From: Candidatus Hodarchaeota archaeon
GTDB lineage: Archaea; Asgardarchaeota; Heimdallarchaeia; Hodarchaeales; Hodarchaeaceae
Assembly (NCBI GenBank): GCA_016840305.1
Contig: JAEOSP010000692.1
Location: forward strand, 1-14,767
Length of the DNA stretch: 14,767 bases
Reading direction: 5' to 3'
Part shown: positions 1 through 14,607 of the stretch, piece by piece
How the letters are laid out: each line of letters opens with the position of its first letter
How positions within the stretch are numbered: the first letter of the stretch is position 1
Notes under the pieces: model-generated
Seen by the model: the letters and a program-made list of their open reading frames with translations, nothing else
What the model was told of the DNA's origin: nothing
The model's database searches: none
Position numbers and translations under genes: made by a program

Positions 1-2
1 AG

Positions 3-671
3 GGTGAATTCATCGCCATAATCGGAAATAATGGTGCAGGGAAGTCTACTTTGGTAAGACATATTATTGGTTTAGTCAAACCGAAAGGTGGGGATTTAAT
101 AGTTGAGGGTACTAATACAAAGAAGCTTACTGCAGCGAAATTAGCCCGCAAGGTGGCCTTTCTATTTCAAAATCCTGATTATCAAATTTTCAATGCTACC
201 GTTCTCAAAGAAGTAGCTTATGGAGCAAGAAATGTAGGAATGAATAAAAAAGAAGCAGAAGAGAAAGCTAAGAAATCGATTTCTGCGGTAAAATTAGCTG
301 ATTATCAAAACCAAGATCCTCTTAAATTATCAATGGGACAAAAACAGAGAGTAGCGGTCGCTAGTGCCCTAACTATGAGCCCTGAAGTCTATGTACTGGA
401 TGAACCAACAACTGGCCAGGACCCTACTTCATTAAAAGGTATTATGGATTTAATGAGGATTGAATATAAGAGTTCAAACGCTACTCTAATTCTAGTAACA
501 CATAATATGAATTTAGTGGATAGTGCTGCTAATCGCACTATTGTTCTTAGCCAAGGGAAAATTATTTCGGATGATGAGACTGATAGTATCTTTAGAGATG
601 AGATGATCATGAAAAGAGCGAATATTGAACCACCCACGAGGATAAAAATGTTAAACATATTGGAAAATTAA
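3..671 (+). CDS. ECF/CbiO-type ABC transporter ATP-binding protein, 5' end missing
   Basis: This is the nucleotide-binding subunit of an ABC importer, most like the EcfA/CbiO ATPases that power energy-coupling-factor uptake of vitamins or metal ions. It acts on the cytoplasmic face of the membrane. The frame is open from base 3, and Walker A (GNNGAGKST) lies at bases 24-50, so the first in-frame TTG (51) sits after the P-loop and is not the start. Further along are the Q-loop (FLFQNPDYQIF, close to the EcfA consensus), the signature LSMGQKQR (Gly of LSGGQ replaced by Met), Walker B VYVLDEPTTGQD and the H-loop VTHNM. The C-terminus is complete at TAA. The missing part should be only the first ~35 residues, unless this is the second half of a fused double ATPase. 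Its membrane partners and substrate subunit would lie to the left, so the substrate is unknown. Confidence 0.92.
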   Translation, partial: GEFIAIIGNNGAGKSTLVRHIIGLVKPKGGDLIVEGTNTKKLTAAKLARKVAFLFQNPDYQIFNATVLKEVAYGARNVGMNKKEAEEKAKKSISAVKLADYQNQDPLKLSMGQKQRVAVASALTMSPEVYVLDEPTTGQDPTSLKGIMDLMRIEYKSSNATLILVTHNMNLVDSAANRTIVLSQGKIISDDETDSIFRDEMIMKRANIEPPTRIKMLNILEN

Positions 672-709
672 GAATCACAGAAGAAATGTCAACCTAGCTA
701 CTTGGAATA

Positions 710-1150
710 TCATTTATTATTAATTTGTGAATGGTACCAACCGAATCGTATTATCAAAAGTAATTCACCACCTAAACAGGCAATATTTATTGGAATGAGT
801 AGTATATCATATTGATATAGGCTGTGTTGTAGATAAAAGCTAGTATCTATCAAACCCAAGAATATTAATGCACCATCAGCGGCTATTCCGAAATAAGAAG
901 CAAAAAGTTGATGCTTCCACGCGCCATAAGCAGAAAGGAGTAATAAAATAACTATCCATGAGTCAGGAAGGAGGAATGAAAATTCAAAAGCTATATAAAT
1001 CTCATATAAGGGATTCGTGGGTTCAATTCACTTTAAAATGTCAGAATACCAACCATTCCAATATCCAATGATTGTTAAAGCGCCGATAACTTCTAGAATT
1101 GCTAATATTCTATCGTTTTTTCCATAAATTTTCTTAGTTGTCATATTCAT
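710..1150 (-). pseudogene. Small four-helix membrane protein gene interrupted by one in-frame TGA
   Basis: Read on the minus strand from ATG 1150 (or the second ATG at 1144, better spaced from a GAAGGT motif), one frame runs 146 codons to a TGA at 710-712. It is broken only by a TGA at 1028-1030 (codon 41). The frame is unchanged on both sides of the stop, and hydrophobic stretches continue in it. I see about four candidate membrane segments, near codons 14-33, 59-78, 82-102 and 115-137. Before the stop comes ...WYSDILK and after it IEPTNPLYEIY. A GGA to TGA change (Gly to stop) would explain the break. I do not recognise the family. It lies 85 bp downstream of the M42 peptidase on the same strand and has an AT-rich candidate TATA (TTTATACC near 1203-1210) of its own. 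It is either a recent pseudogene, a sequencing or assembly error, or a recoded stop. TGA ends other genes here, so general TGA reassignment is unlikely. Confidence 0.7.
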
Positions 1151-1235
1151 ACCTTCAATTGTAAATACAGACCTAATCAAACGATTTTAAATGCTTCAAA
1201 ATTTTATGGTATAAACAGTACTTCCCTTTAAAATA

Positions 1236-2300
1236 CTATCTTATTCCCTTAAATGTGGTAGTAAAGGACCACAAGATTTTGCAAAGTTTTTCGAATACAG
1301 AGAGATAAGCAATTTCATAACCATGACTATTCAAACGAATATGCCCCACACAGGCAGTATGAGGACTAACACCGATATTTCCTACTGCTCCAGCATCACT
1401 ACCGCTCACTGTATATACTAACTGCTGAAGTTCTATTCCAGCTTCTAATGCTGATTGTGATAGTGCACTTATCAGTTCCTTGCTATAAAAGAAAGTTCTA
1501 TCACGAACTCTGATACCAGGTAGGTCTAATAGCATAGGTGAGTCTGCAGCGAAAGGACAACCATCAACAGCTATAAAATACGTTGGTTTAAGTGATTGTG
1601 CTAAATATTTCGCTCCAAAACAACCAATTTCTTCAGTTGTTGTGAATGCTATTATTAAATTCAGAAATGGTCTAAATTCATTCTTTTTTATTGCCTCCAG
1701 CAGTCGAAGTAAGGTCACTATACCCATTTTATCATCAAATGTCCATGAAGCTATCATCGGCTTGGATTCTTCTCCCATAATGATAGGTCCTCTTTCAGAA
1801 TCCAAAATAGTAATCAGAGTTCCTGGTTTGATACCATAGTTCTCTAGCGTTTTTGGGTTCAATCCTGTTATTACTTTCACGTTTTTCCAATCAGTTACTC
1901 CTTTACTATTTCCAGTCGCATGTCCAGAACCTAAGGCAATAATACCTGTAATATGTTTGTTTTCACCGTAGATTGTAACTGGTCGTTCACCATACTTCCA
2001 TGGTATTGATCCGCCTACTCTTTCAATATTTAATGATCCATCAGAGTTAATTTTAGTTACCATTAATCCAATTTCGTCGATATGTGCTGCTAAACAACAT
2101 GTTTCCTGTTTGTCTTCACCTTCAATTTCTATATAAACATTCCCTGTTTGATCTTTAATGGGTTTATATCCTAGATTTGTACATTTTTCAATAATAAAAT
2201 CAGCGATCGATTTTTCCATTCCTGAAGGTGAAGGAATTGCTAATAATTCGCTAAATTGATCAATTATTTCTTTATAAGTGTCATTCCCAAATTCGTTCAA
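1236..2300 (-). CDS. M42 family metallo-aminopeptidase (TET/FrvX-like)
   Basis: This is a cytoplasmic di-metal aminopeptidase of the M42 family, whose members usually assemble into tetrahedral dodecamers and trim peptides released by larger proteases. At 354 residues it has the usual length. Visible ligands and catalytic residues are H73 and D75 (AAHIDEIG), the bridging D189 (TFDDKMG), the catalytic base E223 and ligand E224 (TTEEIG), D246 (VDGCP) and H326 (NSHGYE). Residues ~77-175 would hold the inserted beta-domain. The start is TTG; no ATG or GTG lies in frame nearby. A GTGGTG motif at 2309-2314 sits 8 nt ahead of it. The N-terminal IPSPSG motif falls at residues 22-27, as expected for the family. 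It appears monocistronic, possibly followed by the broken membrane-protein gene. Peptide specificity cannot be told; some M42 members act as cellulase-like proteins in name only. Confidence 0.93.
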   Translation of the reverse strand: MNEFGNDTYKEIIDQFSELLAIPSPSGMEKSIADFIIEKCTNLGYKPIKDQTGNVYIEIEGEDKQETCCLAAHIDEIGLMVTKINSDGSLNIERVGGSIPWKYGERPVTIYGENKHITGIIALGSGHATGNSKGVTDWKNVKVITGLNPKTLENYGIKPGTLITILDSERGPIIMGEESKPMIASWTFDDKMGIVTLLRLLEAIKKNEFRPFLNLIIAFTTTEEIGCFGAKYLAQSLKPTYFIAVDGCPFAADSPMLLDLPGIRVRDRTFFYSKELISALSQSALEAGIELQQLVYTVSGSDAGAVGNIGVSPHTACVGHIRLNSHGYEIAYLSVFEKLCKILWSFTTTFKGIR

Positions 2301-2332
2301 TTGTATTACACCACTTCTTGCTGTTAAGGTAT

Positions 2333-2350
2333 TTAATGAATATTCATTAA
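2333..2350. promoter_or_regulatory. 18-bp perfect palindrome upstream of the M42 gene
   Basis: TTAATGAATATTCATTAA is a perfect 18-bp inverted repeat whose edge is 32 nt ahead of the M42 TTG start. It could be an operator for a dimeric repressor or part of the AT-rich promoter. The minus strand across it also reads ATG-AAT-ATT-CAT-TAA, 10 nt behind CAGGAG, so a four-codon leader peptide is an alternative reading. AT-rich palindromes arise by chance fairly often in such DNA. Confidence 0.35.
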
Positions 2351-2392
2351 TATTGCTCCTGTTAGTAATAAGTAGAGAATTCTCAAATTTAA

Positions 2393-2500
2393 TCTTCCCT
2401 TGTAAATAAAGATTGTAATATCCTCTACTAAACCATTTAAATCGATTTTATGGTCAATAAGCAGTAATACATGAGGATTACGCACATCATCGTATATAGA
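2393..2500 (-). pseudogene. Decayed copy of the 3' end of the neighbouring SF2 helicase gene
   Basis: Minus-strand translation gives 36 codons, SIYDDVRNPHVLLL... ending ...VEDITIFIYKGR. This aligns with the last 38 residues of the helicase encoded at 4696-6891 (SIEDVIEPHV... to ...VDDITIFINEGR). My hand alignment has 26 identities in 35 aligned pairs, with one inserted and three deleted residues. The DNA is visibly similar too (for example GTAATATC and TGGTCAATA are shared). Upstream of the match the frame meets TAA (2501-2503), and the original stop is lost because GGAAGG-TAA has become GGAAGA-TTAA. No helicase core motifs remain. It is a remnant of a duplicated or truncated helicase gene and does not code for a working protein. 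Confidence 0.75.
2393..2500. repeat. Left copy of a ~100-bp direct repeat flanking the PadR operon
   Basis: The segment 2393-2500 and the helicase 3' end at 4699-4812 are diverged direct repeats in the same orientation. They enclose the PadR regulator and membrane-protein genes. Weak similarity may continue past the helicase stop (GAATTC.. and AAATT just before the CTTCCCT block in both copies). This layout fits either a tandem duplication followed by loss, or insertion of the PadR segment at the helicase 3' end with remaking of the gene tail. Confidence 0.55.
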
Positions 2501-2553
2501 TTACGATAAATTATATTTGGAATAGTTTACTATGATTTTGAATACCCATAAGT

Positions 2554-2608
2554 ACTAGTTTTTAAACACCACTAGCCTCACTAGTTCCTAACCGCTAGCC
2601 ACACTAGT
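2554..2608. promoter_or_regulatory. Cluster of five CTAG-centred boxes ahead of the PadR gene; likely operator
   Basis: ACTAG or GCTAG occurs at 2554, 2571, 2580, 2594 and 2603. The last four form two pairs with the same 9-nt internal offset, and the pairs repeat with a 23-bp period (2571-2593, then 2594-2616). Four boxes are palindromic hexamers (ACTAGT three times, GCTAGC once). The block lies ~30-85 nt upstream of the PadR start and downstream of AT-rich stretches (TATATAGA 2494-2500, AATTATATTT 2509-2518) that could hold the TATA box. PadR proteins usually repress their own operon, so autoregulation here is a reasonable inference. Confidence 0.45.
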
Positions 2609-2639
2609 AAAGAAAAAGGATTACTCCAGTGTTAATACA

Positions 2640-3062
2640 ATGAATCCTGAAGAAAATGATCACATTACCTGGGAAAAAGGTATTTCTAATGAAGCACGAA
2701 GCAAAACACAATTTCTCAGTGACTATCGGAGCGATCTCAGACGCGTTATACTGAAATTGATGATTTTGTGTTTGATTCGACTTGAAACTCAACATGCTCA
2801 TGGATATGGCCTTATTCGATTACTTAAAGAAGCTAAAGTAAATGTACAAGCTGGTACGGTATATGCACTATTAAAACGGATGGAAAAAGACGAATTAATT
2901 GTTCCCATTTTAGGAGAATATAAAATATACACTATTACTAATTATGGTGATCATATGATAGATGAGATGATGTCTGCTTACAAAGAATATAATGATTTGG
3001 GGAATAAAACTATTTTAAATTGGTATGCTAGAATAAAAACTCAAAGAAAGAAAAAAGAGTGA
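2640..3062 (+). CDS. PadR family transcriptional regulator
   Basis: This is a 140-residue winged-helix DNA-binding protein of the PadR family, which usually acts as a dimeric repressor of neighbouring genes. Residues 33-60 (RRVILKLMILCLIRL... HGYGLI) match the start of the PadR fold, including the family's HGYxL signature. Residues 71-87 (AGTVYALLKRMEKDELI) are the recognition helix and its lead-in, matching the common PGTLYxxLxRLExxGLI pattern. A short wing (EYKIYTITNYG) follows, then a C-terminal helix for dimerisation. The first ~30 residues are an extra hydrophilic tail, and no strong ribosome site precedes the ATG; an internal ATG at 2760 would cut into the domain. The stop is 6 nt before the next gene, so the two are co-transcribed. 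PadR paired with a HAAS-domain membrane protein is a known arrangement and is what follows here. Confidence 0.9.
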   Translation: MNPEENDHITWEKGISNEARSKTQFLSDYRSDLRRVILKLMILCLIRLETQHAHGYGLIRLLKEAKVNVQAGTVYALLKRMEKDELIVPILGEYKIYTITNYGDHMIDEMMSAYKEYNDLGNKTILNWYARIKTQRKKKE

Positions 3063-3068
3063 TGATGG

Positions 3069-4595
3069 ATGAAAAAAATGGATAATGATGCAAATCAGCT
3101 CACTAGAACACATATTGATGATGTTGAACAACTCCTGCGAACAAATTCCAGTCTCCATGCTAATGAAGTAGATAGTTTACTTTCAGAGATTAATGATTTT
3201 TTACATCTAAGAAGTCGGGAATTAAGTGAAGGGGACATTGTGAGCTATAAAGATGTTCAAAGAGCAATTGATGAGTGTGGTTCCCCTTCAGAAATTGTTA
3301 AACAATACTTAGAGATAAATGATAATGAAATTATGAAACCCTTTAAACCTATAAACGAGAAATCATCCTCTTTCTTTTCTAAGAAACGAATAAGGAAAAT
3401 TTTTCCACAAAGACTGACCAAATCACAGAAATTTATTAAACCACAGGGGACAATTCCACTGAAATCGCTTTCATCAGATTTTAATCCAGCAGAGAAAATT
3501 GATAATGTACGATATCTAACTCATTCGTTCTATAAGAAAAATGAATACAAGAAGAAGATCGAAAAGTGGATTTTCCTGAGTTGTATTTCAATAATTGGGG
3601 TCTTATGGGTTCTATTCCTAGCCTTTTATTGGTTACTCAGTTTTAGAAATGTGGAGACAAAATTTATGAAGTCTTGGGAGGAAAACGAGAACTTTTCAAC
3701 AATCTTTCCTTACCAACCTGATTTTCGTACTCTTTTTACCCAGAATCAAACATATCAGACAAATCTTCGTAGAATTAATCGAATAAAAGTTCTACTGATG
3801 CTGATCCTCATAATACCCTTTTGGGGCTATGTATTTCTTTTTTTTGCAGTAGGAGTGATGTCGTTTTTCACAATAGGAATGGCACCTCTATTAGCTTATT
3901 ATTATCTAAGAGGACCTAAACGACATATCAATATCCTAATTGAGAGAGAATATCAATTAAAATCAGAAAAATCCAATAAATTCAATTATTTAGCGTTTTA
4001 TAACAAAACAGGGTATTTATCCTTTGATTTTGACATAACAACAAAAATTATGAGGGAGCTCAACCTCAGTAAGGAGGAAACAATTCTAGGAATATTTCAA
4101 TCAGGTGTAAGAATTATCCAATCCTCTTTCGTGATAATTACAACTCAAAATATCATAGATTATTCCCCCTCCTTTATCTCTGGATATGGAGATCGAATTC
4201 ATTATCTTCCGAAAAACCAAGTTACTAGTTATCATTTCAGGAAAAAACGAAGAAAAATGACTTTAATAATTGAATCTGTAGAAAGTGGTTCTTTTATTAT
4301 CGGAGGCCTTGATAGGAAAGTCCTTGAACCAATACATAATATAATGAATCTACTTGAAATAAGACTTAGAAAACCTGACATTATTCGATTAGTTCAGAAA
4401 AAAAGGAAGCACATTGTTTCACCAGGTGTAGAGTCTTTTATTTGCCAAGTATGTGAAACTCAGATACCAAGTACGATACCCAACTTAAAATGTGATAGGT
4501 GTAGTCGGTATGTATGTGTTGATTGTTTTTATCAGATGACTCGTAAAGGAATAACTCACTGTCCTAAATGTGAAGGGAGTCTCGTTTCGCAATAA
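3069..4595 (+). CDS. PadR-linked membrane protein: HAAS-like N-terminus, TM segments, PH-like domain, FYVE/RING-spaced zinc finger
   Basis: This 508-residue protein is probably the membrane-bound partner of the PadR regulator. Residues ~12-82 resemble the HAAS (DUF1700-type) domain: helical, with ..AIDECGSPSEIVKQYLE at 66-82 in place of the usual LGxPxxIA ending. Residues 167-191 are a clear TM helix and 240-280 a longer hydrophobic stretch (one helix or a hairpin), with a ~47-residue polar loop between. Residues ~333-433 look like a bacterial PH (YokE-type) beta-barrel, with the pattern LSKEETIL..GVRIIQSSFVIITTQNIIDYS..ESGSFIIGGLD. The tail has eight cysteines at 459, 462, 475, 478, 483, 486, 498 and 501, spaced C-x2-C-x12-C-x2-C-x4-C-x2-C-x11-C-x2-C. 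That is the cross-brace spacing of FYVE/RING fingers, but without the FYVE basic RRHHCR motif. Function is unknown; a membrane-associated sensor or scaffold is plausible. The domain calls rest on pattern reading only. Confidence 0.8.
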   Translation: MKKMDNDANQLTRTHIDDVEQLLRTNSSLHANEVDSLLSEINDFLHLRSRELSEGDIVSYKDVQRAIDECGSPSEIVKQYLEINDNEIMKPFKPINEKSSSFFSKKRIRKIFPQRLTKSQKFIKPQGTIPLKSLSSDFNPAEKIDNVRYLTHSFYKKNEYKKKIEKWIFLSCISIIGVLWVLFLAFYWLLSFRNVETKFMKSWEENENFSTIFPYQPDFRTLFTQNQTYQTNLRRINRIKVLLMLILIIPFWGYVFLFFAVGVMSFFTIGMAPLLAYYYLRGPKRHINILIEREYQLKSEKSNKFNYLAFYNKTGYLSFDFDITTKIMRELNLSKEETILGIFQSGVRIIQSSFVIITTQNIIDYSPSFISGYGDRIHYLPKNQVTSYHFRKKRRKMTLIIESVESGSFIIGGLDRKVLEPIHNIMNLLEIRLRKPDIIRLVQKKRKHIVSPGVESFICQVCETQIPSTIPNLKCDRCSRYVCVDCFYQMTRKGITHCPKCEGSLVSQ

Positions 4596-4695
4596 TATGC
4601 TAATTCAGAGGTATCAAGTATATTTAGCCACTATCATCTACAACATACTAAATTGAAACAGGAAAACCCATTAGAAATACCAAATTCGTTTGAAA
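4596..4695. other. Short convergent gap between the membrane protein and helicase genes
   Basis: One hundred bases between two converging genes. I see no gene, no convincing hairpin and no long T-run on either strand, so any transcription stop here must rely on weak AT-rich signals. Confidence 0.5.
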
Positions 4696-6891
4696 TTACC
4701 TTCCCTCATTAATAAATATTGTAATATCATCTACAAGGTTATTTAACGCAATTTTTTGGTCAATAGTAAGTAATAAATCTTGTACATGAGGTTCTATCAC
4801 ATCTTCAATGCTACGGGCTTCAGCTACCTCATATTCATATTTAAGTTCCATGGGGTCAATAACAAGTTCAAAAAATTTCGCAACTTTTCCAGGTCGTGTA
4901 GCTCGTCCAACACGTTGAATTTGCTCACGTCTATTCCTAGTACCAGACACAATAATTATCGTATCTGCAGGAGCATCGAAACCTTCATTTAGCATCTTAA
5001 CTAGAATCAATGTATTAATTCTATTTTCACGAAAATCATCAAGAAGTACTTGTAATTCTTTATCATTTAATACAGTTTCTCCTGTTAATAACGTGCTCTC
5101 GATCTTCCTATCCTTAAGGAATTTATGAATTACCTTAGCGTGATTTATACGACTCGTAAAGATTAACGTTTGCGATATTAAAGGTGATTGAAGTAATTTC
5201 CATATTGCGAATAATTTATACCTGGCTTCACGCGATACCTTACCATAAGAGGACTTCCCTTTAAGATTAATGAGCTTTTTCTCATCGCCTGTTAACGGAA
5301 TATGAATTCGCCTGGAGTAAATAGGAGCAATGTACCCCTCACGTGCTAATAATCCATAATTAACCTTATGGATAATTGGACCCATCGTAGCAACTACTAA
5401 GGACGAATGTACACTTTTCTCAATGGTAGCACTTAGAGCAAGACGTCTAGGAATCTCAAGATCAACAGCAATGAATCTAAACGTGCTAGCTTGGATATGG
5501 TGCGATTCATCCCCGATTAATAGCCCAAATTTCTCAGTAAAAAAGCCTATAGTGTCTTCGACTAAAATTTTATCACGAGATACTTTATCCAGTAGATTTT
5601 GTTCCAAAGCATGGAAATCTTGCAGATATTGTGCTAACAACTGAAATGTAGAGATGACGATTGGGTATTCTCGAAAAGCCTTTTTCTGACCTGTAAAAAT
5701 GCCAATTTGATCAATTGGTAATGTAGTAAACGTATGAATTTGGTCAATCCATTGATCTACCAGCGCTAAATTCGGCACTAATATCAGTGTTCTTTGTTGG
5801 ATGACTCGAATGATGTCAATGCCAATGATTGTCTTACCAGCTCCTGTTGGTAGTTGAATTGTTCCGAAAGCTTGGTTTTCGATCCATCTATCAACTCCTT
5901 TTTGTTGATAGGGACGTAATTGATATTCTTTTTTCATTTCAGTTTTGAAAATTACCTTTTTTGGTTCATAGCTACTATACTCAATTTTGAATAGAGTTGT
6001 TCCGTCTTTGTTTTTCATGCTCTTGTCAATCATTTGCCAGAAATAATTAGCTCTGAAAGCAGCCCAGTAAGTTACTTCGATCTTACGATCACCAGTTTGT
6101 GTAATACATGGTATGTAATCAGCATTAGGGTCATCTTCAGATCTTATTGCCATATATCGTACAAAAAGGTTGAAAAGTGAATGAAACCATGTATTGAATT
6201 CTTTATTCCATGTTACATGTAATTTACTTTCAACTGTTTCTATTTGGATTAAAAATTCTTCATGACCAGTTTTAGTTTTTTCCTGAAGATTTTCCTCAAC
6301 CCCTTGTGCAAAGTGTACTTCTACACCCGATTTTTTTAGATATTCTAAATCCTCTCCTATTAATTGTGGAAATTTCAAGACGAATTTCGTTGGCCTATGT
6401 GTCCTCGTATGTTTCCAATACTCTTCATGCTCTCGCCAATTTCGTGACCAAATCCTAAATTGTTCCTCTACCCATGTCATATAGAAAAACTTGCGATCGT
6501 ACTCTTCCTGTTCTTCTTTGTCAAGGTATTCGAAAAATTCTTCCACATTGAGATCCCGTGATCTTTCACTCTTGTAATGAGATCGACGGACTGGAATCCA
6601 TGCATTGATTTTTGTGAACGGAAACCATGGAAAATCTACAAGGAAACTTAGATCCTCTTGTATTTCAATAACATACTTATGATCTGGTTGTGTATTCAAA
6701 AAACGATCCCAACCCTCATCTGTTATTGATGCACCCTTCAGTCTTGGACTTGTTTTTCCCCTCAGTCCAAGATTTGGCGAGGAACAAAGATGTGTTCTTA
6801 TATTATGTCTGCAAAGAGGAGCTGAACACTTACTACATCGATAGATTTTGGCCCCTTTTTCAGTACACTCTTTACATATTTCAAGTGATAT
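4696..6891 (-). CDS. SF2 DNA helicase (XPB/Rad25-like) with N-terminal AN1-like zinc finger; probable ATA start
   Basis: This is an ATP-driven superfamily 2 helicase or translocase, nearest in motif style to XPB/Rad25 and restriction-type helicases. Numbered from the TTG at 6699, it has the Q-region RPYQQ (262-266), Walker A PTGAGKT (284-290), Ia TLILVPN, motif II GDESHH (396-401), motif III LSAT (422-425), IV TLIFTSR, V NEGFDAP (571-577) and VI QRVGRATRPG (595-604). That TTG gives 667 residues, but the frame stays open upstream to TAG 6904-6906. It encodes a finger with C6, C9, C19, C22, C27, H29, H34 and C36 (numbered from 6891), which looks AN1-like. No ATG, GTG or TTG exists there. GGAAGG at 6899-6904 lies 7 nt ahead of ATA 6889-6891, giving MSLEICKEC and 731 residues. 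The ~265 residues between finger and core are unassigned. DNA repair or defence are possible roles; neither is shown. Confidence 0.88.
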   Translation of the reverse strand: MSLEICKECTEKGAKIYRCSKCSAPLCRHNIRTHLCSSPNLGLRGKTSPRLKGASITDEGWDRFLNTQPDHKYVIEIQEDLSFLVDFPWFPFTKINAWIPVRRSHYKSERSRDLNVEEFFEYLDKEEQEEYDRKFFYMTWVEEQFRIWSRNWREHEEYWKHTRTHRPTKFVLKFPQLIGEDLEYLKKSGVEVHFAQGVEENLQEKTKTGHEEFLIQIETVESKLHVTWNKEFNTWFHSLFNLFVRYMAIRSEDDPNADYIPCITQTGDRKIEVTYWAAFRANYFWQMIDKSMKNKDGTTLFKIEYSSYEPKKVIFKTEMKKEYQLRPYQQKGVDRWIENQAFGTIQLPTGAGKTIIGIDIIRVIQQRTLILVPNLALVDQWIDQIHTFTTLPIDQIGIFTGQKKAFREYPIVISTFQLLAQYLQDFHALEQNLLDKVSRDKILVEDTIGFFTEKFGLLIGDESHHIQASTFRFIAVDLEIPRRLALSATIEKSVHSSLVVATMGPIIHKVNYGLLAREGYIAPIYSRRIHIPLTGDEKKLINLKGKSSYGKVSREARYKLFAIWKLLQSPLISQTLIFTSRINHAKVIHKFLKDRKIESTLLTGETVLNDKELQVLLDDFRENRINTLILVKMLNEGFDAPADTIIIVSGTRNRREQIQRVGRATRPGKVAKFFELVIDPMELKYEYEVAEARSIEDVIEPHVQDLLLTIDQKIALNNLVDDITIFINEGR

Positions 6892-6898
6892 TTTGAGC

Positions 6899-6904
6899 CC
6901 TTCC
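6899..6904 (-). promoter_or_regulatory. Ribosome binding site GGAAGG supporting the ATA start of the helicase
   Basis: On the minus strand GGAAGG is followed by a 7-nt spacer (GCTCAAA) and then ATA at 6891. The motif overlaps the in-frame TAG that closes the frame upstream, so translation of the zinc finger must begin at or just after this point. No similar motif stands at proper spacing ahead of TTG 6699. Confidence 0.55.
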
Positions 6905-7111
6905 TAGGCTGTGTAGAGATTTTTTGGTGATTCTATAGAAAAACGTCAGAACAGGTTTATTCAAGAAATAAGCTGTCCTACTATAAAAAATTTTTAATTC
7001 AAATGTGTTTTTCTGATAACTAAGAAAATCCCTCTGATCCCATTTCCCTTGGCGTAAAATTAAATATCTTTCGCTACTATTCGCTTTCTACCCAGTTTCA
7101 ATAAATTAAAT
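6905..7111 (-). promoter_or_regulatory. Intergenic promoter region of the helicase gene
   Basis: This gap lies between two minus-strand genes. A TATA-like run (minus strand TTTTTTATAG, 6981-6990, preceded by ATTAAAAA) would place a transcription start near 6955 and leave a leader of about 65 nt before the ATA start. The rest is AT-rich without recognisable genes. A 27-codon open stretch starting at a TTG near 6950 in another frame is probably chance. Confidence 0.4.
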
Positions 7112-8488
7112 TTATGCAATTCCCAGAGGAGTGAGTAACTTTCCAGTTCCTCGACGTTCCAAAATCACTCCTTGATCATAAACAATATTTCCTCTTACAA
7201 GTGTCTTTTCCACTTTACCTCTTAATTCTCTCCCATGAAAAATAGAAATTTTTGGATTTGCAAAAAGATTTTCATTTTTTAGTTGGTATTTTTTTTTCAA
7301 ATCAATAATTATAAGATCTGCATCTGTATTCAAAGCAATAGTGCCTTTACGGGGAAACAATCCAAATCTTTTAGCAGGATTAGTAGACATTAACTCAACA
7401 AGTTTCTTAAATGGCAAACGACCATTATTACATGCATCAAGCATTAATGGAAAGCTGGTCTCAATTCCTGTGGTTCCTGATCCAACTTCGAAATAGCTAT
7501 TGTTGTCTCCTAGTTGTTTTTCTTCATCACTATATGGTGAATGATCACTAGCTATCATATCAATAGTGCCATTATTCAGAGCATTCCATGCTTCAACAAC
7601 ATGTTCTTTTCCGCGTAATGGAGGATCCACTTTAGCCCAAGGACCAATGGTTTCTCCATCTTTATCTGTTAAAAATAGATGATGGGGAGTTATCTCACAA
7701 GTTACATCAATTGATTTTTTCGCACTCTGAATCATGGAAAATGCGTTTTTTGAACTCATATGCACAAGATGTAATTTTACATTAGTTTCTTTTGCAAAGA
7801 GGATTGCTCGTTGACATGCTTCATCCTCAGAAATAGGAGGTCTTGATTCTGTGTGCGCTTGATAGTCTACTCTCCCTAATGAAGATAATCTATCAATTTC
7901 TGCAGTAATTATATCATCATTTTCTGCATGGACACAGCTTACAAGCTTTGTTTTGGCAATTTCTGAAAATATTTTTAATAATCCATAATCATTTTGTGCT
8001 GCAAGATCTTGAAGCTCTGCTTCTTCTTCTGAAGGATTAATCATAAAGGTTTTGAAAGCAACTACTCCCCTCTTAGCTAATTCACTAATCGAATCAATAC
8101 TTGAGTAACCTGCCGCGCCGATTAATCCGTAATCTACAATACTCTTTTTGTGGATTGCTTTAGATTGCATTTCAAATACATCTAGCACTGAATGCCCTTC
8201 GATTCCTAGAGGCATTTCAAGAATTGTAGTTACACCACCAGATGCAGCAGCTTGGGTGCCAGTACCAAAATCTTCTCTGTATGAAAAGATTAAGTCCAAA
8301 ATATGTGTGTGGACATCAATACATCCAGGTAAAACGATTTTATCTGTGACATCAAGAATTTTATCTGCAATAGGAAGATGTTCTTCTTTTCCAATAGCGA
8401 GGACCTTTCCATCTTCGATACTAAGACCAGATTCAATTAATGTATTCCCAATGAAAATTTTTCCATTTACAAGGTTCATATCGGCCAT
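7112..8488 (-). CDS. Cyclic amidohydrolase, allantoinase/hydantoinase/dihydroorotase superfamily
   Basis: This 458-residue metal-dependent amidohydrolase opens cyclic amide or ureide rings and is presumably cytoplasmic. Metal-site residues are all visible: H60 and H62 (DVHTH), K146 in AFKTFM (the lysine carbamylated in this family), H187 (CVHAEN), H243 (LVHMSS) and D315 (IASDHSPY). ITPHHLFLT (266-274), VDPPLRGKEH and GTTGIETSFPLML resemble allantoinase (AllB) and dihydroorotase more than D-hydantoinase. The C-terminal small beta-domain (TDADLIIIDL.., VRGNIVYDQG) is complete. The start is ATG 8488 with GGGGT about 8 nt upstream; a second ATG three codons on is possible. There is no pyrimidine biosynthesis gene nearby, and the adjacent M20D amidohydrolase and PLP decarboxylase suggest breakdown or salvage. 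Allantoin, hydantoins or dihydropyrimidines are all possible substrates. Confidence 0.9.
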   Translation of the reverse strand: MADMNLVNGKIFIGNTLIESGLSIEDGKVLAIGKEEHLPIADKILDVTDKIVLPGCIDVHTHILDLIFSYREDFGTGTQAAASGGVTTILEMPLGIEGHSVLDVFEMQSKAIHKKSIVDYGLIGAAGYSSIDSISELAKRGVVAFKTFMINPSEEEAELQDLAAQNDYGLLKIFSEIAKTKLVSCVHAENDDIITAEIDRLSSLGRVDYQAHTESRPPISEDEACQRAILFAKETNVKLHLVHMSSKNAFSMIQSAKKSIDVTCEITPHHLFLTDKDGETIGPWAKVDPPLRGKEHVVEAWNALNNGTIDMIASDHSPYSDEEKQLGDNNSYFEVGSGTTGIETSFPLMLDACNNGRLPFKKLVELMSTNPAKRFGLFPRKGTIALNTDADLIIIDLKKKYQLKNENLFANPKISIFHGRELRGKVEKTLVRGNIVYDQGVILERRGTGKLLTPLGIA

Positions 8489-8615
8489 AGAATTGACCCC
8501 ATTATGATGAAAATTGCTTTTCCTAATTCGCGTTTCATAGTATTTTTTTGTATTCTTGAATTATGAAAACTTTATTTCATTATTATTGAAAGAAGTTGTT
8601 TCAGTGATATGGATT
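8489..8615. promoter_or_regulatory. Divergent promoter region between amidohydrolase and decarboxylase genes
   Basis: The AT-rich core 8532-8552 (CATAGTATTTTTTTGTATTC on the plus strand) reads AAAAAAATACTATG on the minus strand, a TATA-like box about 45-55 nt ahead of the amidohydrolase ATG. It may serve both genes. For the decarboxylase a transcript start near 8560 would favour the ATG at 8616 over the TTG at 8556. Confidence 0.35.
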
Positions 8616-9992
8616 ATGAATGGAAAAAACACTGATCAAATATATTCAGGAGCTTCACCAGATCAAATAAGGAAAGATATTTTACCATTAGTAAACTTTC
8701 AATCAGAAGGAATACCTTTAGAAGCATTAGCTACCATAATTAGTCAGAGTTTAGTTCCTCACTTCGCAAATTATGAACATCCCGCGTTTCATTCCCTATA
8801 CAATTTTTTTCCTGAAAGAGGAGCAATGATGGGGGCAGAAATTGCATTAATGTACAATCAAGGGGTTACAAATTGGGTTGTATCCCCTGGTGCCGTGATG
8901 TTAGAAGAACTCTGTTGCAAAGCACTATGCCGCCTTTTTAAGCTTGATTCTACAGCTGACGCCACTTTTTATTATTGTGGTACTTATTCAAATCAGTCAG
9001 CTCTGTTTCTTGCCCTGCATTGGACTGCTGAAGAACATGGGTTCGACTTCAGTAAAAAAGGATTGCTTGGATTCAAGGATCCAAAACGTCTTGTGGCTTT
9101 AACATCTACCGATGCCCATTTTTCGTTGAAGCATGCATTACGTATTATGGGACTGGGAGATGAAAGTTTAATAACAATTCCTGTAGACTCTAATAGAAAA
9201 ATGGATGCAGCCATCTTAAAAGAGACAATTCAAAATATTAAAGAAGAGAAAGATATCTTTTGCGTTGTAGCAACAGCTGGTACGACTGCAACAGGTGCCA
9301 TAGACCCATTATCAGAAATCGCGGATATCTGTGAAGCAAAGAATATCTGGTTACATGTAGATGCCGCATATGGATTAGCTTACAGCTTAATACCTAGTCG
9401 AAAACAATTTTTTGCAGGAATAGAACGTGCTGATTCGATTACATGGGATCCTCATAAGCAATTCGGAGTACCAATACCAAATTCCCTTCTATTCGTTAGA
9501 AGGGCAGGTGATCTTTACAGAAATGCGATCTTTTCGGATTACTTCAACCGTGCTGATGATCCTGAACCTAATCCTGGATTAAAGTCGCCTCCGACTACTC
9601 GACCCTTCTCAGCCCTTCCAGTAGTAACCACAATCAAGTATCTGGGATTGAATCAGGTGATCAATAGACTACAGTACCATGTCAATGTAATTGAAAATTC
9701 AGTGGAATTATTATCCAAGGAAAAAGATATTGAGATAGTCCATACTCCTGAGCTTGGTATCCTCTGTTTACGGTTAAAACCAGTGGGATTTCCACTTGAT
9801 CAACTGGATCAATTGCATCAATTTATTTTTGATGAAATAAAAGCAGAAGGAAAGAGAGCTGTGTCTCTGACCAAATTAGATGATAAGAAAGTACTACGAA
9901 TAGTAGTCCTAAATCAAAATGTGACTCCAGAATCCATTTTACAGTCAATTGCGGACTTTCGATCGATTATAAACAGATTCAAGTTGAAATGA
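8616..9992 (+). CDS. Group II PLP-dependent amino acid decarboxylase
   Basis: This is a pyridoxal-phosphate enzyme of the group II decarboxylase fold, the family of glutamate, aromatic amino acid, diaminobutyrate and sulfinoalanine decarboxylases. It removes the alpha-carboxyl of an amino acid. Motifs counted from the ATG at 8616 are WVVSPGAVMLEELC, the substrate loop FYYCGTYSNQSAL, STDAHFSLKHA (H167, stacks on PLP), ATAGTTATGAIDP, HVDAAYG (D249, pyridine nitrogen) and SITWDPHKQFGVP with the PLP lysine K281. Length is 458 residues, normal for the family. An upstream in-frame TTG (8556) would add 20 residues, but GTGAT 8 nt before ATG 8616 and the usual family N-terminus favour the ATG. It is divergent from the amidohydrolase and followed by the M20D gene. 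The amino acid used cannot be read from these motifs. Confidence 0.92.
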   Translation: MNGKNTDQIYSGASPDQIRKDILPLVNFQSEGIPLEALATIISQSLVPHFANYEHPAFHSLYNFFPERGAMMGAEIALMYNQGVTNWVVSPGAVMLEELCCKALCRLFKLDSTADATFYYCGTYSNQSALFLALHWTAEEHGFDFSKKGLLGFKDPKRLVALTSTDAHFSLKHALRIMGLGDESLITIPVDSNRKMDAAILKETIQNIKEEKDIFCVVATAGTTATGAIDPLSEIADICEAKNIWLHVDAAYGLAYSLIPSRKQFFAGIERADSITWDPHKQFGVPIPNSLLFVRRAGDLYRNAIFSDYFNRADDPEPNPGLKSPPTTRPFSALPVVTTIKYLGLNQVINRLQYHVNVIENSVELLSKEKDIEIVHTPELGILCLRLKPVGFPLDQLDQLHQFIFDEIKAEGKRAVSLTKLDDKKVLRIVVLNQNVTPESILQSIADFRSIINRFKLK

Positions 9993-10154
9993 GTTTAAAA
10001 ATGAATTTTTCAGGTGCTAAGAATTTTAGCAAAAAAGTTAGAAAAATATATAGCCCTGTATCATAATAATCCTTGAATTATAATGATTTTAATTTTGTTG
10101 GAAACATTATACCATTAGATAGCAAAAAAGACTTCTGATAATAAAAAACAGTTA
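9993..10154 (+). promoter_or_regulatory. Gap with small hairpin and candidate promoter for the M20D gene
   Basis: A small stem (GCTAA 10016-10020 with TTAGC 10026-10030) follows the decarboxylase stop; it is too short to call a terminator with confidence. Two TATA-like boxes follow, AAAAATATATAG (~10042-10053) and ACATTATACC (~10105-10113). Either could start an independent transcript for the M20D gene, although read-through from the decarboxylase is also possible. Confidence 0.3.
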
Positions 10155-10160
10155 GAGGTG
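10155..10160 (+). promoter_or_regulatory. Ribosome binding site GAGGTG that decides the M20D start
   Basis: GAGGTG is a strong match to the archaeal anti-Shine-Dalgarno sequence. It includes the GTG at 10158 that would otherwise be the first possible start, so the real start is more likely the TTG at 10167, with a 6-nt spacer (GAATTA). Confidence 0.65.
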
Positions 10161-10166
10161 GAATTA

Positions 10167-11615
10167 TTGGATTTAAAACTTGAAGAATGGATTGATACTA
10201 ATAAAGAGAAATTCATTGATATTAGTGATAGTATTTGGAGTTTTGCAGAGATTGGATTAATGGAAGAAAAATCATCCGATCTTTTAGCAAAAACTCTGGA
10301 AGATGCAGGTTTTGTAATTGAACGGGGAATAGCAGGTATGCCAACAGCATTTGTGGCGAGCTATGGAAGTAGTAAACCTGTTATAGCAATCCTTGGTGAG
10401 TTTGATGCATTACCTGGATTGAGTCAAACAACTGATCCAGAGAAAACAGTATTGAAAGAGGGAGCGCCTGGTCATGGATGTGGTCATAATCTTCTAGGTG
10501 TTGCAGGATTGGCTGCATGTCTTGCATTAAAAGAATCGTTAAATACTAATGGTTTACAAGGAACTATCCGTTATTATGGGTGTCCCGCAGAAGAGAATGT
10601 TGACGCAAAAGGAGGAATGGTGAAAGCAGGAGCTTTTTCAGATGTTGATATTTCTTTAACATGGCATCCAGGACAAACTAATGGTGTTATAGCCACTAAT
10701 TTCCAAGCTATTTATTCAATGGTATTTAATTTTAAAGGTAAAGCAGCTCATGCAGCTGGAGATCCTTATCATGGTCGTTCAGCTCTTGATGCTGTAGAAT
10801 TAATGAATGTGGGATGTAATTATCTAAGGGAACACATAATCCCAGATGCAAGACTGCATTATATTATTACAAAAGTTGGGAAAGCACCTAATATCGTACC
10901 AGAGGAGGCTGCTGCATGGTATTACGTACGAGCTCCTCAACTAGATCAATTAAGAGAAATATATCCACGGGTAGTTAAGGTTGCAAAAGGAGCTGCTCTC
11001 ATGACAGAAACAGAGTTAGAAATCGATTTTCAGGGAGGATCCGCCAACCTTCTTGCTAATAACACCCTTGAAGATTTACTCTATCAAAAAATGATCGCAC
11101 TGGAACACCCACAATTTGATCAGGAAGATCAAGCATACGCAAAGGAAATTGTCAAATCTCTACCAGAAGGATATTTTGATATTATAATAGCAACATTACC
11201 TCCTGATATGCGAACCGATTTTGAACAGCTCAGAAATGTCAATTTGTGTGAGATAATCTTACCCATTAAAGGCCGAGGAATAACACTTCCAGGTTCTACA
11301 GATGTGGGAGATGTAAGCTGGGTAACACCACTTGCTCAATTTGCAACAGCCTGTGTGACAATAGGAACACCAGGCCATTCTTGGCAATTAGTTGCTCAAT
11401 CAGGTATGAGTATTGGTCATAAAGGGATGATATTTGCAGCAAAAGTTTTAGCTCTCTCTGGATTCGAATTGTTCACAAATCCAGAATTAATCTCAAAGGC
11501 AAAAGAAGAATTTAAAGCGAAAATTGAGAAAACTCCTTACACAAGTCCACTTCCCGATGATTGGAAGCCACCTATCGAGTACCTCAAATCCCTTTATTCA
11601 GGTGAGAATAGTTAA
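10167..11615 (+). CDS. M20D family amidohydrolase, AbgB-like
   Basis: This is a di-metal amidohydrolase of the M20D group (p-aminobenzoyl-glutamate hydrolase subunit B, IAA-amino acid and N-acyl amino acid hydrolases) that cleaves an amide bond between an acyl group and an amino acid. Starting at TTG 10167 it has 482 residues; numbering below counts from GTG 10158. Visible features are GEFDALPG (D83), GHGCGHNLLG with metal ligands C108 and H110, PAEE with the catalytic base E145 and ligand E146, TWHPG with H170, the dimerisation-domain entry FKGKAAHAAGDPYHGRSALDAV, and GMSIGHKGM with the last ligand H421. The tail PLPDDWKPP resembles AbgB proteins. The gene meets the minus-strand toroid gene tail to tail; both stop codons share the TTAA at 11612-11615. 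The natural substrate is unknown; an N-acyl or N-carbamoyl product of the nearby cyclic amidohydrolase is one possibility. Confidence 0.92.
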   Translation: MDLKLEEWIDTNKEKFIDISDSIWSFAEIGLMEEKSSDLLAKTLEDAGFVIERGIAGMPTAFVASYGSSKPVIAILGEFDALPGLSQTTDPEKTVLKEGAPGHGCGHNLLGVAGLAACLALKESLNTNGLQGTIRYYGCPAEENVDAKGGMVKAGAFSDVDISLTWHPGQTNGVIATNFQAIYSMVFNFKGKAAHAAGDPYHGRSALDAVELMNVGCNYLREHIIPDARLHYIITKVGKAPNIVPEEAAAWYYVRAPQLDQLREIYPRVVKVAKGAALMTETELEIDFQGGSANLLANNTLEDLLYQKMIALEHPQFDQEDQAYAKEIVKSLPEGYFDIIIATLPPDMRTDFEQLRNVNLCEIILPIKGRGITLPGSTDVGDVSWVTPLAQFATACVTIGTPGHSWQLVAQSGMSIGHKGMIFAAKVLALSGFELFTNPELISKAKEEFKAKIEKTPYTSPLPDDWKPPIEYLKSLYSGENS

Positions 11616-12577
11616 TTTTTGATTGATCCTTCTCTTAGAATCTTACAAAGATAGCTATAAAATGTAACCCATTTATTGGGTTGTTTTCGTTCGCCAGGAT
11701 TCAAATATCGATTATGAGGACTCGAATCTAAAATGTACTTTTTTTCCTCAGTTCTATGCTTCTCTAAGATTTCCCATGCTCTTTTAACTCTCTTATCAGA
11801 GTCGTAACCCATCTTACAGAGAGGATAAAGCACATTGATTAATCCTGCATAATATGTAAAGGGAAAAAAGATAAGATTTGCATCTTTACGGACTAATTTC
11901 TTTTTATTAGTTGTTTTGAAAAGAACTTCACGTTTTAAGAAGTAGTTAACAAGATCCTTCACAAATGGTTTGTGCCATACTTGTGGAAATTCGCTTAACC
12001 CAAAGAGTGCTTTTACTGATCCTCGGTAGCAAGATTTCACAAGTTGCCCTCTTTTACGTTTTCCTTCATGTAAGTCGCATAAATAGCCATTATCATAACG
12101 AATTTGCGATTCAAGAAGAACGAGACGTTTTAGCAGTCGAGGATCTTCTCCAAAGCCAAGTTTTGCGAATGTTCGAAGGGTCAACCCTAGAAGACAAGAA
12201 AGATAATTCCAAAATTCCTCATCTGAGGCTTGTAAGGAGAGATATCGATCAGCTGCAAGTTCAACCCATGGTTCCTCCCTCGTAAGGCCTAATTCCGCTA
12301 AATACCCCAATACATAGTGGGTTGTGTTGAAAGTTGCATATTCCACCCCTGCACCGATGATCCTCCCATCATGCTTTTTAATTGTCCAATATCCTTCAGG
12401 ATGCATTGCTTTCTTAATTTTTTTAACATTAAAGGCTTGTAAAATTGATTTTTGGGTTTCTATCATCTTTTTGTCTGTTGATGGTCTATTTTGAATTTCT
12501 TTCATGGTTCGATATCGAATTGAGGGATTTTCTCTCTCAAGTAACCAGTGCAATACATTTTCGGGAATTGTTTCCAC
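11612..12577 (-). CDS. Alpha/alpha-toroid (prenyltransferase/squalene-cyclase-like) protein of unknown function
   Basis: This 321-residue, all-helical protein belongs to a family that databases often call prenyltransferase-like. Supporting patterns are WLLERENPSIRYRTM (11-25), HPEGYWTIKK (59-68), the Y-x-T-x-x-x-x-L-x-x-L-x-E-L-G-like segment (80-98), LGFGEDPRLLKRL (140-152, the repeat-type element), a DNGYLCDL motif (162-169) and the closing KWVTFYSYLCKIL (302-314). There is no DDXD-type cyclase acid motif and no Zn-binding prenyltransferase triad, so enzyme activity is not supported; it may be a binding scaffold. The start is GTG 12577, backed by AGGAG (12586-12590) with an 8-nt spacer. It lies 40 bp downstream of the DUF72 gene on the same strand and is probably co-transcribed with it. 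Confidence 0.8.
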   Translation of the reverse strand: METIPENVLHWLLERENPSIRYRTMKEIQNRPSTDKKMIETQKSILQAFNVKKIKKAMHPEGYWTIKKHDGRIIGAGVEYATFNTTHYVLGYLAELGLTREEPWVELAADRYLSLQASDEEFWNYLSCLLGLTLRTFAKLGFGEDPRLLKRLVLLESQIRYDNGYLCDLHEGKRKRGQLVKSCYRGSVKALFGLSEFPQVWHKPFVKDLVNYFLKREVLFKTTNKKKLVRKDANLIFFPFTYYAGLINVLYPLCKMGYDSDKRVKRAWEILEKHRTEEKKYILDSSPHNRYLNPGERKQPNKWVTFYSYLCKILREGSIKN

Positions 12578-12585
12578 TTATAGAG

Positions 12586-12590
12586 CTCCT
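12586..12590 (-). promoter_or_regulatory. Ribosome binding site AGGAG for the toroid gene
   Basis: On the minus strand AGGAG precedes GTG 12577 by 8 nt, in the short gap after the DUF72 stop. It supports the GTG start and translation from a shared transcript. Confidence 0.6.
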
Positions 12591-12617
12591 TTTGATTCTA
12601 AATCGATACCTATAGTA

Positions 12618-13592
12618 CTATTCACTTTCTAAAAGAAATCCACAATTCTCACAGTATTTGTCTAATTTCATAACTGTATCCCCACAGTTAGAACAAAAGC
12701 GAATGAAATCATCAATTTGAACCTCAGGGACATCAAGATATTGATCCAAAGACGATTGTGGCTTTTCTCCTGCTCTCTTTCTTACCCGTGTTAAATCAAT
12801 TTTTTCTGGTTTGGGTAAAGGTTGTTTCAGTAATATCGCTAATTGTCTTGCGTTAGCAGGAGCATGCCCTGCAGGGTGATTATTGAAGTATGTGTATATT
12901 TCTTTGGTATTTTCTTGTAATCTTTCAATTTTATCTTTCCAAACACATAATTCCTTTTGAGAGTATCGATATTGATACCATATTTTTAATCCGTGACCGT
13001 GAAAACGGATATAAGAGAAATCTGCTGTTACAGGAGTTATCGGAGGGAGTAGAGGTTCATCCACAATACAAAAAGCAGCATTATAACGAGATAATAAATC
13101 AGTGGTTTGTTTAAGATGCTTTACCCAGCTTCTCTCACGGAATTCTACTGCTAATTTCAGATCTGAAGGCCAGTGACGCAAAAAAACCGCTAAGGCATTC
13201 CTATTCTTTTGTTCATCAGAGAATTTTGGCGGTAATTGCAGTAACGCAGGTCCTAATTTACGTCGTAGTCCACTTTGCATTGTATCAAGAAACCGTTCAA
13301 GATCATGGGCAAAATCTACAAGCTTCTTTTCATGAGTAATAGTTTTAGGAATTTTAAAAGCAAACGTAAAATTCTCTGGAACATGTTTTTCCCATTTCTG
13401 TACAAAATTAAGTCGAGGAAAGTGGTAAAAACTTGTATTTATCTCAACAGTGGGAAAAACTTCACTATAGTACGCTAGTCGCTGTTGTTCCACCAGTATT
13501 GAGGGATAGAAGGGTATCTTTGTCTTTTCATGTTTTCCTGTCCAATCTGAATAACCGAAACCTGAGGTTCCAATCAGTATTTTCGCTGGCAT
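12618..13592 (-). CDS. DUF72 (YecE-like) TIM-barrel protein with C-terminal zinc ribbon
   Basis: Residues 1-~245 form the DUF72 domain, a TIM barrel of unknown biochemical role widespread in bacteria and archaea. Family hallmarks are present: IGTSGFGYSDWTGK near the start, FPTVEINTSFYHFP (46-59), ALLQLPPKF, LAVEFRERSW, and IRFHGHG, with IYTYFNNHPAGHAPANA near the barrel end. The usual domain ends soon after this; here about 70 more residues follow, closing with a four-cysteine zinc ribbon (CSNCG and CENCG: C300, C303, C314, C317). The ATG at 13592 gives the standard N-terminus, although the ribosome site ahead of it is weak (GAGAAC). A TATA-like TTTTTATGAG around 13652-13661 (minus strand) lies ~60 nt upstream. 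It is first in a two-gene unit with the toroid protein. No function can be assigned. Confidence 0.92.
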   Translation of the reverse strand: MPAKILIGTSGFGYSDWTGKHEKTKIPFYPSILVEQQRLAYYSEVFPTVEINTSFYHFPRLNFVQKWEKHVPENFTFAFKIPKTITHEKKLVDFAHDLERFLDTMQSGLRRKLGPALLQLPPKFSDEQKNRNALAVFLRHWPSDLKLAVEFRERSWVKHLKQTTDLLSRYNAAFCIVDEPLLPPITPVTADFSYIRFHGHGLKIWYQYRYSQKELCVWKDKIERLQENTKEIYTYFNNHPAGHAPANARQLAILLKQPLPKPEKIDLTRVRKRAGEKPQSSLDQYLDVPEVQIDDFIRFCSNCGDTVMKLDKYCENCGFLLESE

Positions 13593-13776
13593 ATGTTAGT
13601 TCTCTTCGAAATCCATAGATAATTACTTCTTAGTTTTTCTCTATTTTTACTCATAAAAAGGTTTAGACAACGGATCATGATCAAACAAATATTCTTGTGA
13701 TTTTTGTCATTTTCAGTCTAGTCTCTCACTGTGTGAGAGTAAAGAGCTAGAGATGAAATGATATAACTAGATACTA
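13593..13776. promoter_or_regulatory. Divergent promoter region between DUF72 and the RadA-like gene
   Basis: This 184-bp gap separates two outward-facing genes. The minus-strand TATA candidate lies near 13652-13661. On the plus strand AAATATTC (~13687-13694) could act as a box, giving a leader of ~55-60 nt. Between it and the ATG lie a perfect hairpin-forming palindrome (13723-13739) and three CTAG tetramers (13718, 13747, 13767). Confidence 0.4.
13723..13739. repeat. Perfect 7-bp inverted repeat CTCTCAC-TGT-GTGAGAG
   Basis: A 17-bp element with 7-bp perfect arms and a 3-nt centre, located 38 nt ahead of the RadA-like ATG. It stands out in AT-rich DNA because the arms are GC-richer. It could be a repressor site or a stem in the 5' leader. 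TCTAG (13717-13721) and CTAGA (13747-13751) lie outside it on either side as a second, wider inverted pair. Confidence 0.5.
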
Positions 13777-14598
13777 ATGCAAACGAGTGAATCCTTAGAC
13801 GAATTGAAATCAAAACCATGGACTTCCGCCTATGAGTTACAACAAATTAAAAGATACAAATTCGGTTTACTTGCTCTGGATGCTCTCAACCCCGCAGGTA
13901 TGCTACCTGGAAATCTATTCTTATTACAAGGACACTTAAACAGAAAATTACTAAGACTTCTGATAACCAATCTCAGTATCGGATTATTAACTTCTAATGA
14001 ACCTGCTGAAGTAGCATTCGTTGATGGAGCAAATGTATTTCCTTATTATGAAATATCAACAGAGGCACGAAAGCGTGGTTATGATCCACTAGTTATTCTG
14101 GATCGTATTCAATTAGCACGAGCTTTCAATTACCATCAAATCACAGAAATCATTACAAACAGGTTACCAGCTTTACTCAGAGCCAAACCAGATCTTAGAA
14201 TAGTTCTCATTCCCCAGATATCGTCCCAATATTTCTCTAAGGAAGCTTTACAGTACCTTGAGTATGCGCACTTATCACCTGGGGAAGGATCTATTTCTGA
14301 ACTTACTCACGCGGTAGGGATGCTTAAAAGTCTTGCATTAGAACATAATCTGGTAGTTATTATGACGGCTGATAGTGCGGATAATTCACAAACGAAGGGA
14401 CTTGGTGGGACATATTTATCTCACTCTGCATCAACAGTTATTCGAATCACATCCTCAGCAAGTTCTACCAAAGAGTACGACATCCACTTCTCACTTCAAA
14501 AGGATCCAGCTCGGCCTGTCATTCAACTAAAACATTCACATCGACAAAAAAAACCTATGAATAATCAAATGTTACTTAACCGTTATTTTAAGCATTGA
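13777..14598 (+). CDS. RadA/Rad51-fold protein with degenerate Walker A and B motifs
   Basis: This 273-residue protein keeps the order of the RecA/RadA ATPase core. FLLQGHLNRKLLRLL (48-62) sits at the P-loop, AEVAFVDGANVFPYYEI (77-93) at the RadA VxYIDTExxFRPxRI region, RGYDPLVILDRIQLARAFNYHQ (100-121) matches the RadA segment before motif B, RIVLIPQISSQYF (141-153) sits at Walker B, LEHNLVVIMTADS matches the next beta strand, and GGTYLSHSASTVIRI (210-224) matches the RadA GGxxLAHSATxRxxL element. The P-loop GxxxxGK[ST] has lost its second Gly and Thr/Ser, and the Walker B Asp is replaced (LIPQIS). ATP hydrolysis is therefore unlikely; a structural paralogue of RadA, comparable in principle to non-catalytic RadB/Rad51 paralogues, is more likely. 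There is no strong ribosome site before the ATG. It is followed after 9 nt by the MGRT protein. Confidence 0.82.
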   Translation: MQTSESLDELKSKPWTSAYELQQIKRYKFGLLALDALNPAGMLPGNLFLLQGHLNRKLLRLLITNLSIGLLTSNEPAEVAFVDGANVFPYYEISTEARKRGYDPLVILDRIQLARAFNYHQITEIITNRLPALLRAKPDLRIVLIPQISSQYFSKEALQYLEYAHLSPGEGSISELTHAVGMLKSLALEHNLVVIMTADSADNSQTKGLGGTYLSHSASTVIRITSSASSTKEYDIHFSLQKDPARPVIQLKHSHRQKKPMNNQMLLNRYFKH

Positions 14599-14607
14599 TG
14601 ATGTATA

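Follow-up and report, generated by a model that had tools for sequence, protein, structure and literature searches.

An XPB-type helicase of superfamily 2 (SF2), 731 residues long and encoded on a contig of a Candidatus Hodarchaeota archaeon (JAEOSP010000692.1, assembly GCA_016840305.1), is very probably translated from a near-cognate AUA codon, replaced by AUU in its relatives, with a Cys/His finger forming its first ~36 residues. The 14,767 nt analysed, positions 1 to 14,767 of the contig's forward strand, are termed the window; features are read on its minus strand, and given in its coordinates, unless otherwise indicated. The proposed coding sequence (CDS) occupies positions 4696-6891, as defined by the frame, its translation and the point at which homology to other proteins begins, which is the ATA codon.

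If this is correct, an AUA or AUU start kept clade-wide in a long, constrained gene extends the list of archaeal start codons, and the choice of start codon in Asgard archaea becomes testable with a single reporter. The start codons named by a review of archaeal initiation are AUG, GUG and UUG (PMC7531240), and it is proposed, but disputed, that within the archaea Hodarchaeales are the sister group to eukaryotes (PMC12077186, PMC12395588). No AUA or AUU start in an archaeal protein-coding gene was found in the literature at the level of titles and abstract openings, among the matches listed by a search that covered few subscription journals.

An open frame lacking a canonical start codon

The frame of the helicase is closed upstream by a TAG at 6904-6906, after which 68 open codons (6903-6700), none of them ATG, GTG or TTG, lead to the first canonical codon, a TTG at index 68 (6697-6699), from which the ordinary open reading frame (ORF) encodes 667 aa. 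Immediately after the TAG, the sequence reads GAA GGG CTC AAA ATA TCA CTT GAA ATA TGT, the first ATA (6889-6891) being the proposed start; the equivalent codon is ATT in four relatives, and many distant orthologues have a methionine at this point. The finger (6784-6876) comprises eight Cys/His ligands, C6, C9, C19, C22, C27, H29, H34 and C36 of the proposed protein, in the arrangement C-x2-C-x9-C-x2-C-x4-C-x1-H-x4-H-x1-C. An earlier note on this DNA had described the open frame, its coordinates and this spacing, all of them exactly. The stretch is judged to be coding because it is conserved even in orthologues only about 41-45% identical, rather than on the basis of codon usage.

Proposed start codons in orthologous DNA

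Nine orthologues besides that of the window were available as DNA, from genomes designated G001, G002, G003, G048, G047, G051, G049, G052 and G044. The codon aligned with the window's ATA is ATT in four of these, CTG in three and TTG in one, and cannot be placed in the ninth. In G001, G002, G003 and G048 the ATT stands 3 to 7 codons after an in-frame stop, and in G047 and G051 the CTG stands one codon after such a stop. In these six and the window, no ATG, GTG or TTG lies between the upstream stop and the conserved coding region, the first canonical codon being found only after the finger, at index 53 to 92. The remaining three have a canonical codon ahead of the conserved region: G052 carries TTG at the site itself, G049 has CTG at the site with an in-frame ATG four codons upstream, and G044, the orthologue too divergent for the codon to be placed, also has an in-frame ATG upstream. 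So the initiation site appears to be retained while the codon that occupies it drifts.

The clade of the window comprises 17 tips in the tree, of which five are represented by DNA and twelve by called proteins, two of the latter (P0013 and P0009) being the same genes as those of G001 and G048. All five members with DNA carry an isoleucine-type codon, ATA or ATT, at the site, which fits a single ancestral switch; none of the twelve called proteins includes the finger. A third-base change to G would give ATG, and is absent from all five genomes.

Selective constraint on the finger

The ratio of non-synonymous to synonymous change (pN/pS) indicates that coding constraint reaches the unusual codon. 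Among the four genomes with ATT, pN/pS is 0.04-0.11 in residues 2-64, resembling the 0.07-0.09 of the rest of the protein, with synonymous change of 49-71% and 74-80% in the two parts respectively. Comparison of the window with these four gives 0.17-0.21 in residues 2-64 and 0.19-0.21 elsewhere. The ATT itself is invariant in the four, a retention of one codon that is seen at only eight of 58 shared isoleucine positions, the start included. As far as comparison of sequences can tell, these data show that the finger is translated, under strong purifying selection, where no canonical start exists. Since the finger is strongly constrained, no canonical in-frame start precedes it and a stop lies only a few codons upstream, a non-canonical start is needed. 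The earlier note had offered a choice between a real gene starting at ATA and a finger being lost from this strain after mutation of ATG to ATA; the former is supported by the ATT of four relatives and by a constrained finger without a canonical start, and the latter is contradicted by the same four genomes and the same purifying selection.

The finger in called proteins

Searching with the extended protein identified 143 relatives at E <= 0.001 (120 of them listed), the nearest of which, P0002-P0004, are 85-90% identical, the source names among the best 64 matches being Hodarchaeales, Hodarchaeota, Heimdallarchaeota and other Asgard groups. In an alignment of the window with 28 orthologues, hand-picked mostly for length, 26 have the finger at the same place as in the window and the other two begin within it; all eight ligands are invariant across a set of 22 sequences, likewise selected by hand. 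Many orthologues begin MSLEIC or MSLEVC, and their methionine aligns above the window's ATA.

A pattern count across the best 64 matches, in which fragments and the short form called in the window were counted, found the finger in 29 and not in the other 35. The letter at the start site of the 29 finger-bearing proteins is M in 20, L in five and another residue in four; the internal M of P0054 must be a true ATG. All 14 matches with at least 70% identity and at least 75% query coverage, including the short form from the window (P0001), are finger-less as called, and the internal starts chosen by gene callers vary between species. In practice, gene callers delete a whole domain (35/64), so that the domain architecture of the family is often mis-described. 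These short proteins also resemble what the earlier note had listed as evidence against its proposal, namely homologues beginning near TTG 6699 with no Cys/His residues upstream. This is so in the table of proteins but not in the DNA, where the frames of six orthologues hold the finger with no canonical codon before it.

Initiation and the sequence around the start

The ribosome would begin at an isoleucine-type codon where other Asgard orthologues carry methionine. That AUA or AUU is itself the codon used, we infer as the most economical account, with initiation by the 30S subunit and initiator Met-tRNA; the tRNA would read either codon through a third-base mismatch, aided by a weak Shine-Dalgarno (SD) sequence. 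In the window, a weak SD-like stretch, GGAAGG at 6899-6904, was identified from the sequence and a scan for SD cores and is separated from the ATA by 7 nt. The earlier note had placed the motif correctly, but as an SD sequence it is weaker than the note implied. The four relatives with ATT have the SD core GAGG, 7 nt ahead of the start. By keeping a weak start, as in conserved unusual starts of bacteria, the clade could hold the level of the helicase low or adjustable.

Nothing around the start gives a positive sign of a regulatory element, since both conservation and folding are ordinary in the window and the genomes with ATT. Of 99 G002/G003 pairs with shared starts, nine have downstream identity as high as that of the helicase. 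Using 111 start regions, all from G002 and G003, as folding controls, a start hairpin was considered and rejected, with 35 to 68 controls folding as low as or lower than the window and the genomes with ATT. The corresponding counts are 23 for G052, 64 for G049, 12 for G047 and 13 for G051, the last two being near the low end. Palindromes further upstream were also rejected, being weak by shuffling (z between -2.2 and 0.0). Neither Rfam nor tRNA searches of the window found anything, and ARAGORN, run on 140 stretches, returned 11 distinct tRNAs with no Met tRNA among them, a sample too small to judge whether the initiator tRNA is unusual.

A number of observations weigh against a near-cognate start. 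The best perfect SD core in the window is the 4 nt AGGA, 10 nt ahead of the ATA; in the genomes with CTG, AGGA is 11-12 nt ahead, and G052 has no core. Codon usage in the window's 68 codons is neutral to slightly unfavourable (-4.9 bits), and the stretches above the first canonical start in eight other orthologues score between -7.6 and 3.8 bits. Upstream of the start, identity over 20 nt is as high as the helicase's in 18 of the 99 G002/G003 pairs (the helicase being counted), and the folding of 60 of the 111 control regions equals or surpasses that of the window's start region. The methionines printed in protein records may hide TTG, as in P0023, which prints M and is the same protein that starts with TTG in G052, and some finger-less called proteins, such as P0005-P0007, may instead have been cut by contig ends. 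Moreover, the DNA read from G002 (about 1.07 Mb) and G003 (0.85 Mb) shows no detectable general habit of near-cognate initiation. Across 1,122 gene-like frames, the enrichment of SD sequences before in-frame relative to out-of-frame codons is clear for ATG (187/1570 against 31/1755), TTG and GTG, and is not seen for CTG (17/349 against 45/1220, p 0.20), ATA (50/1584 against 55/2214, p 0.13) or ATT (67/2421 against 86/3202). A scan of 651 frames by coding score also passes over the helicase, whose four frames reach 0.11-0.14 per codon relative to a cut-off of 0.15.

Alternative explanations

The best surviving alternative, itself improbable, is that some other non-canonical codon of the stretch serves as the start (for the window, CTC, AAA or the second ATA; for relatives, CTT or ATC), or that an AUG arises through splicing or RNA editing. 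Between the upstream stop and the site lie just 3 to 7 codons, both in the window and in the genomes with ATT, and DNA alone cannot choose among them, but it is the first ATA or ATT that aligns with the initial methionine of orthologues beginning MSLEIC, and the codon preceding it varies (ATC, ATT or AAA).

It is very unlikely that the finger is a decaying relic, its ATG recently changed to ATA, with the working protein made from TTG 6699 or another internal codon. The finger-less calls for 35 of the 64 best matches, the availability of that TTG and the neutral codon usage of the stretch would all accord with decay; this hypothesis is nonetheless largely refuted by the pN/pS of 0.04-0.11 in four genomes without a canonical start, and is opposed by the retention of all eight ligands, by the isoleucine-type codon common to the five clade members with DNA and by the disagreement between species over the internal start called.

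A similarly slight probability attaches to an out-of-frame ATG followed by +1 ribosomal frameshifting, or to termination-reinitiation from a short frame ending on the start: G001, G002, G003, G047 and G051 have such an ATG exactly 13 nt ahead of the site, and in G001-G003 the TAG of a short frame overlaps the ATT, but neither the window nor G048 has any ATG within 60 nt upstream, so this cannot serve the window's gene. The short frame of G001-G003 (L004, L005 and L006, minus strand) has five codons, ATG AGG GCT TAT (CAT/TAT) TAG, and resembles known termination-reinitiation pairs; it is absent from the window and G048.

Possible near-cognate starts elsewhere in the relatives

Near-cognate initiation, the explanation preferred here for the helicase, looks rare yet not unique in these archaea, judging by the sequences of G002, G003 and their relatives. 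Among 107 reciprocal pairs of frames from G002 and G003, only the helicase and one other extend past the first canonical start by more than 12 codons in each of the two genomes, and the other was rejected as antisense to a long open frame. The coding-score scan gave 48 frames with at least 20 codons before the first canonical start, and four genes were picked by eye from the 30 of these that were listed.

The first, an aldo/keto reductase (G002 L084:3796-4680, plus strand), has CTG preceded at 6 nt by GGTGA, where all five other orthologues found have ATG. A 303-aa protein (G002 L078:15094-16002, plus strand) has ATT, with GGTGA 6-7 nt upstream, in a position that coincides, to within a codon, with the ATG of G003, G044 and G047 and the TTG of G051; G049 (L185) also has ATT at the site, with GGAGGT 7 nt ahead, but with an in-frame TTG five codons up. 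The third gene, by eye a PiT-type phosphate transporter (G002 L058:11118-12119, plus strand), has CTG in G002, G001, G003, G048 and G044 and TTG at the same site in G047, G049, G051 and G052; of the five with CTG, only G002 is without a canonical codon nearby upstream. The same gene has, in G003 and G048, a GTG in frame shortly before the site, within an SD-like stretch, which could lead gene callers astray. Finally, what appears by eye to be a thioredoxin reductase with a glutaredoxin-like N-terminal part (G002 L161:15713-16960, plus strand) has CTG no more than one codon away from the position of ATG in G001 and G048. Each of these cases could hide another unusual codon or, where confined to G002, an assembly error.

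A broader proposal can be put forward only tentatively, and is on balance doubtful: that Hodarchaeales start a genuine, if small, group of long and conserved genes at AUU, AUA and CUG, with drift among AUG, UUG, CUG, AUU and AUA at a single orthologous site; that their stringency of initiation is looser than described for archaea; and that selection keeps AUA or AUU in the helicase clade as a control on expression.

Comparison with known non-canonical starts

The infC gene of Escherichia coli starts at AUU, a conserved unusual start associated with initiation-factor control. It is like the helicase gene in that a weak start other than AUG, GUG or UUG is kept across relatives even though a single base change would give AUG. 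To our knowledge, archaea are without the bacterial initiation factor 3 (IF3). In Deinococcus deserti, proteogenomics is said to have found non-canonical starts. A conserved GTC start under IF3 control is described for Streptomyces sigR (PMC5472188), and ribosome profiling of Methanosarcina mazei assigns CTG starts to 5% of unannotated small ORFs (PMC11456600).

The helicase gene differs from infC and sigR in being archaeal and in its proposed use of AUA or AUU; within this comparison, initiation-factor control is documented for the bacterial genes only. With the D. deserti and M. mazei cases it would share a near-cognate start overlooked by gene callers, and it is distinguished from them by encoding a long, conserved protein, by the occurrence of AUA or AUU throughout a clade of Asgard archaea, and by a basis that is comparative rather than proteomic.

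Nature of the finger and helicase

The description of the finger as AN1-like, made in the earlier note, is a resemblance of spacing only. When the 68 residues were searched alone, zf-HIT was the sole Pfam family at E <= 10, its 17.2 bits falling below the gathering score of 24.7, and zf-AN1 gave no match at that threshold. In a profile search of 29 family members at E <= 1, zf-HIT matches 18, with a best E of 0.02, and zf-AN1 is absent from the 25 listed of 35 Pfam families. A structural model of the finger alone is poor (mean predicted local distance difference test score 65.9), with no PDB match at E <= 0.001 and AN1 chains appearing only at E 4.6 and worse. The ligands would be expected to bind zinc.

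By its sequence and predicted fold, the body of the protein is an XPB-type SF2 helicase of the DNA-repair type. Helicase domain 1 (Pfam ResIII, XPB-like, E 2.4e-25) covers residues 327-495 of the 735-aa frame (5419-5925), and domain 2 (Pfam Helicase_C, E 5.2e-13) residues 568-672 (4888-5202). RAD25/XPB chains head the lists from both sequence-profile and VIA fold comparison, although the match to the NCBIfam XPB equivalog, at 181.2 bits, does not reach its cut-off of 610. The likeness to XPB/Rad25 helicases, in both fold and helicase motifs, extends over residues ~213-731, and the N-terminal finger sets the window's protein apart from them. The rows of the fold comparison span mainly residues 134-731, barely covering the first ~130. 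PADLOC matches, to PbeA and others, fall in the helicase core.

Neighbouring genes

On the plus strand at 2640-4595, a gene that appears by eye to encode a PadR-like regulator stands beside one for a 508-aa membrane protein, the end of which is Cys-rich and RING- or treble-clef-like. Within several kb of the helicase is a gene that we take to be DUF72-like, found at 12618-13592 (minus strand) in the window and at L003:1432-2400 (plus strand), the distances differing between the two.
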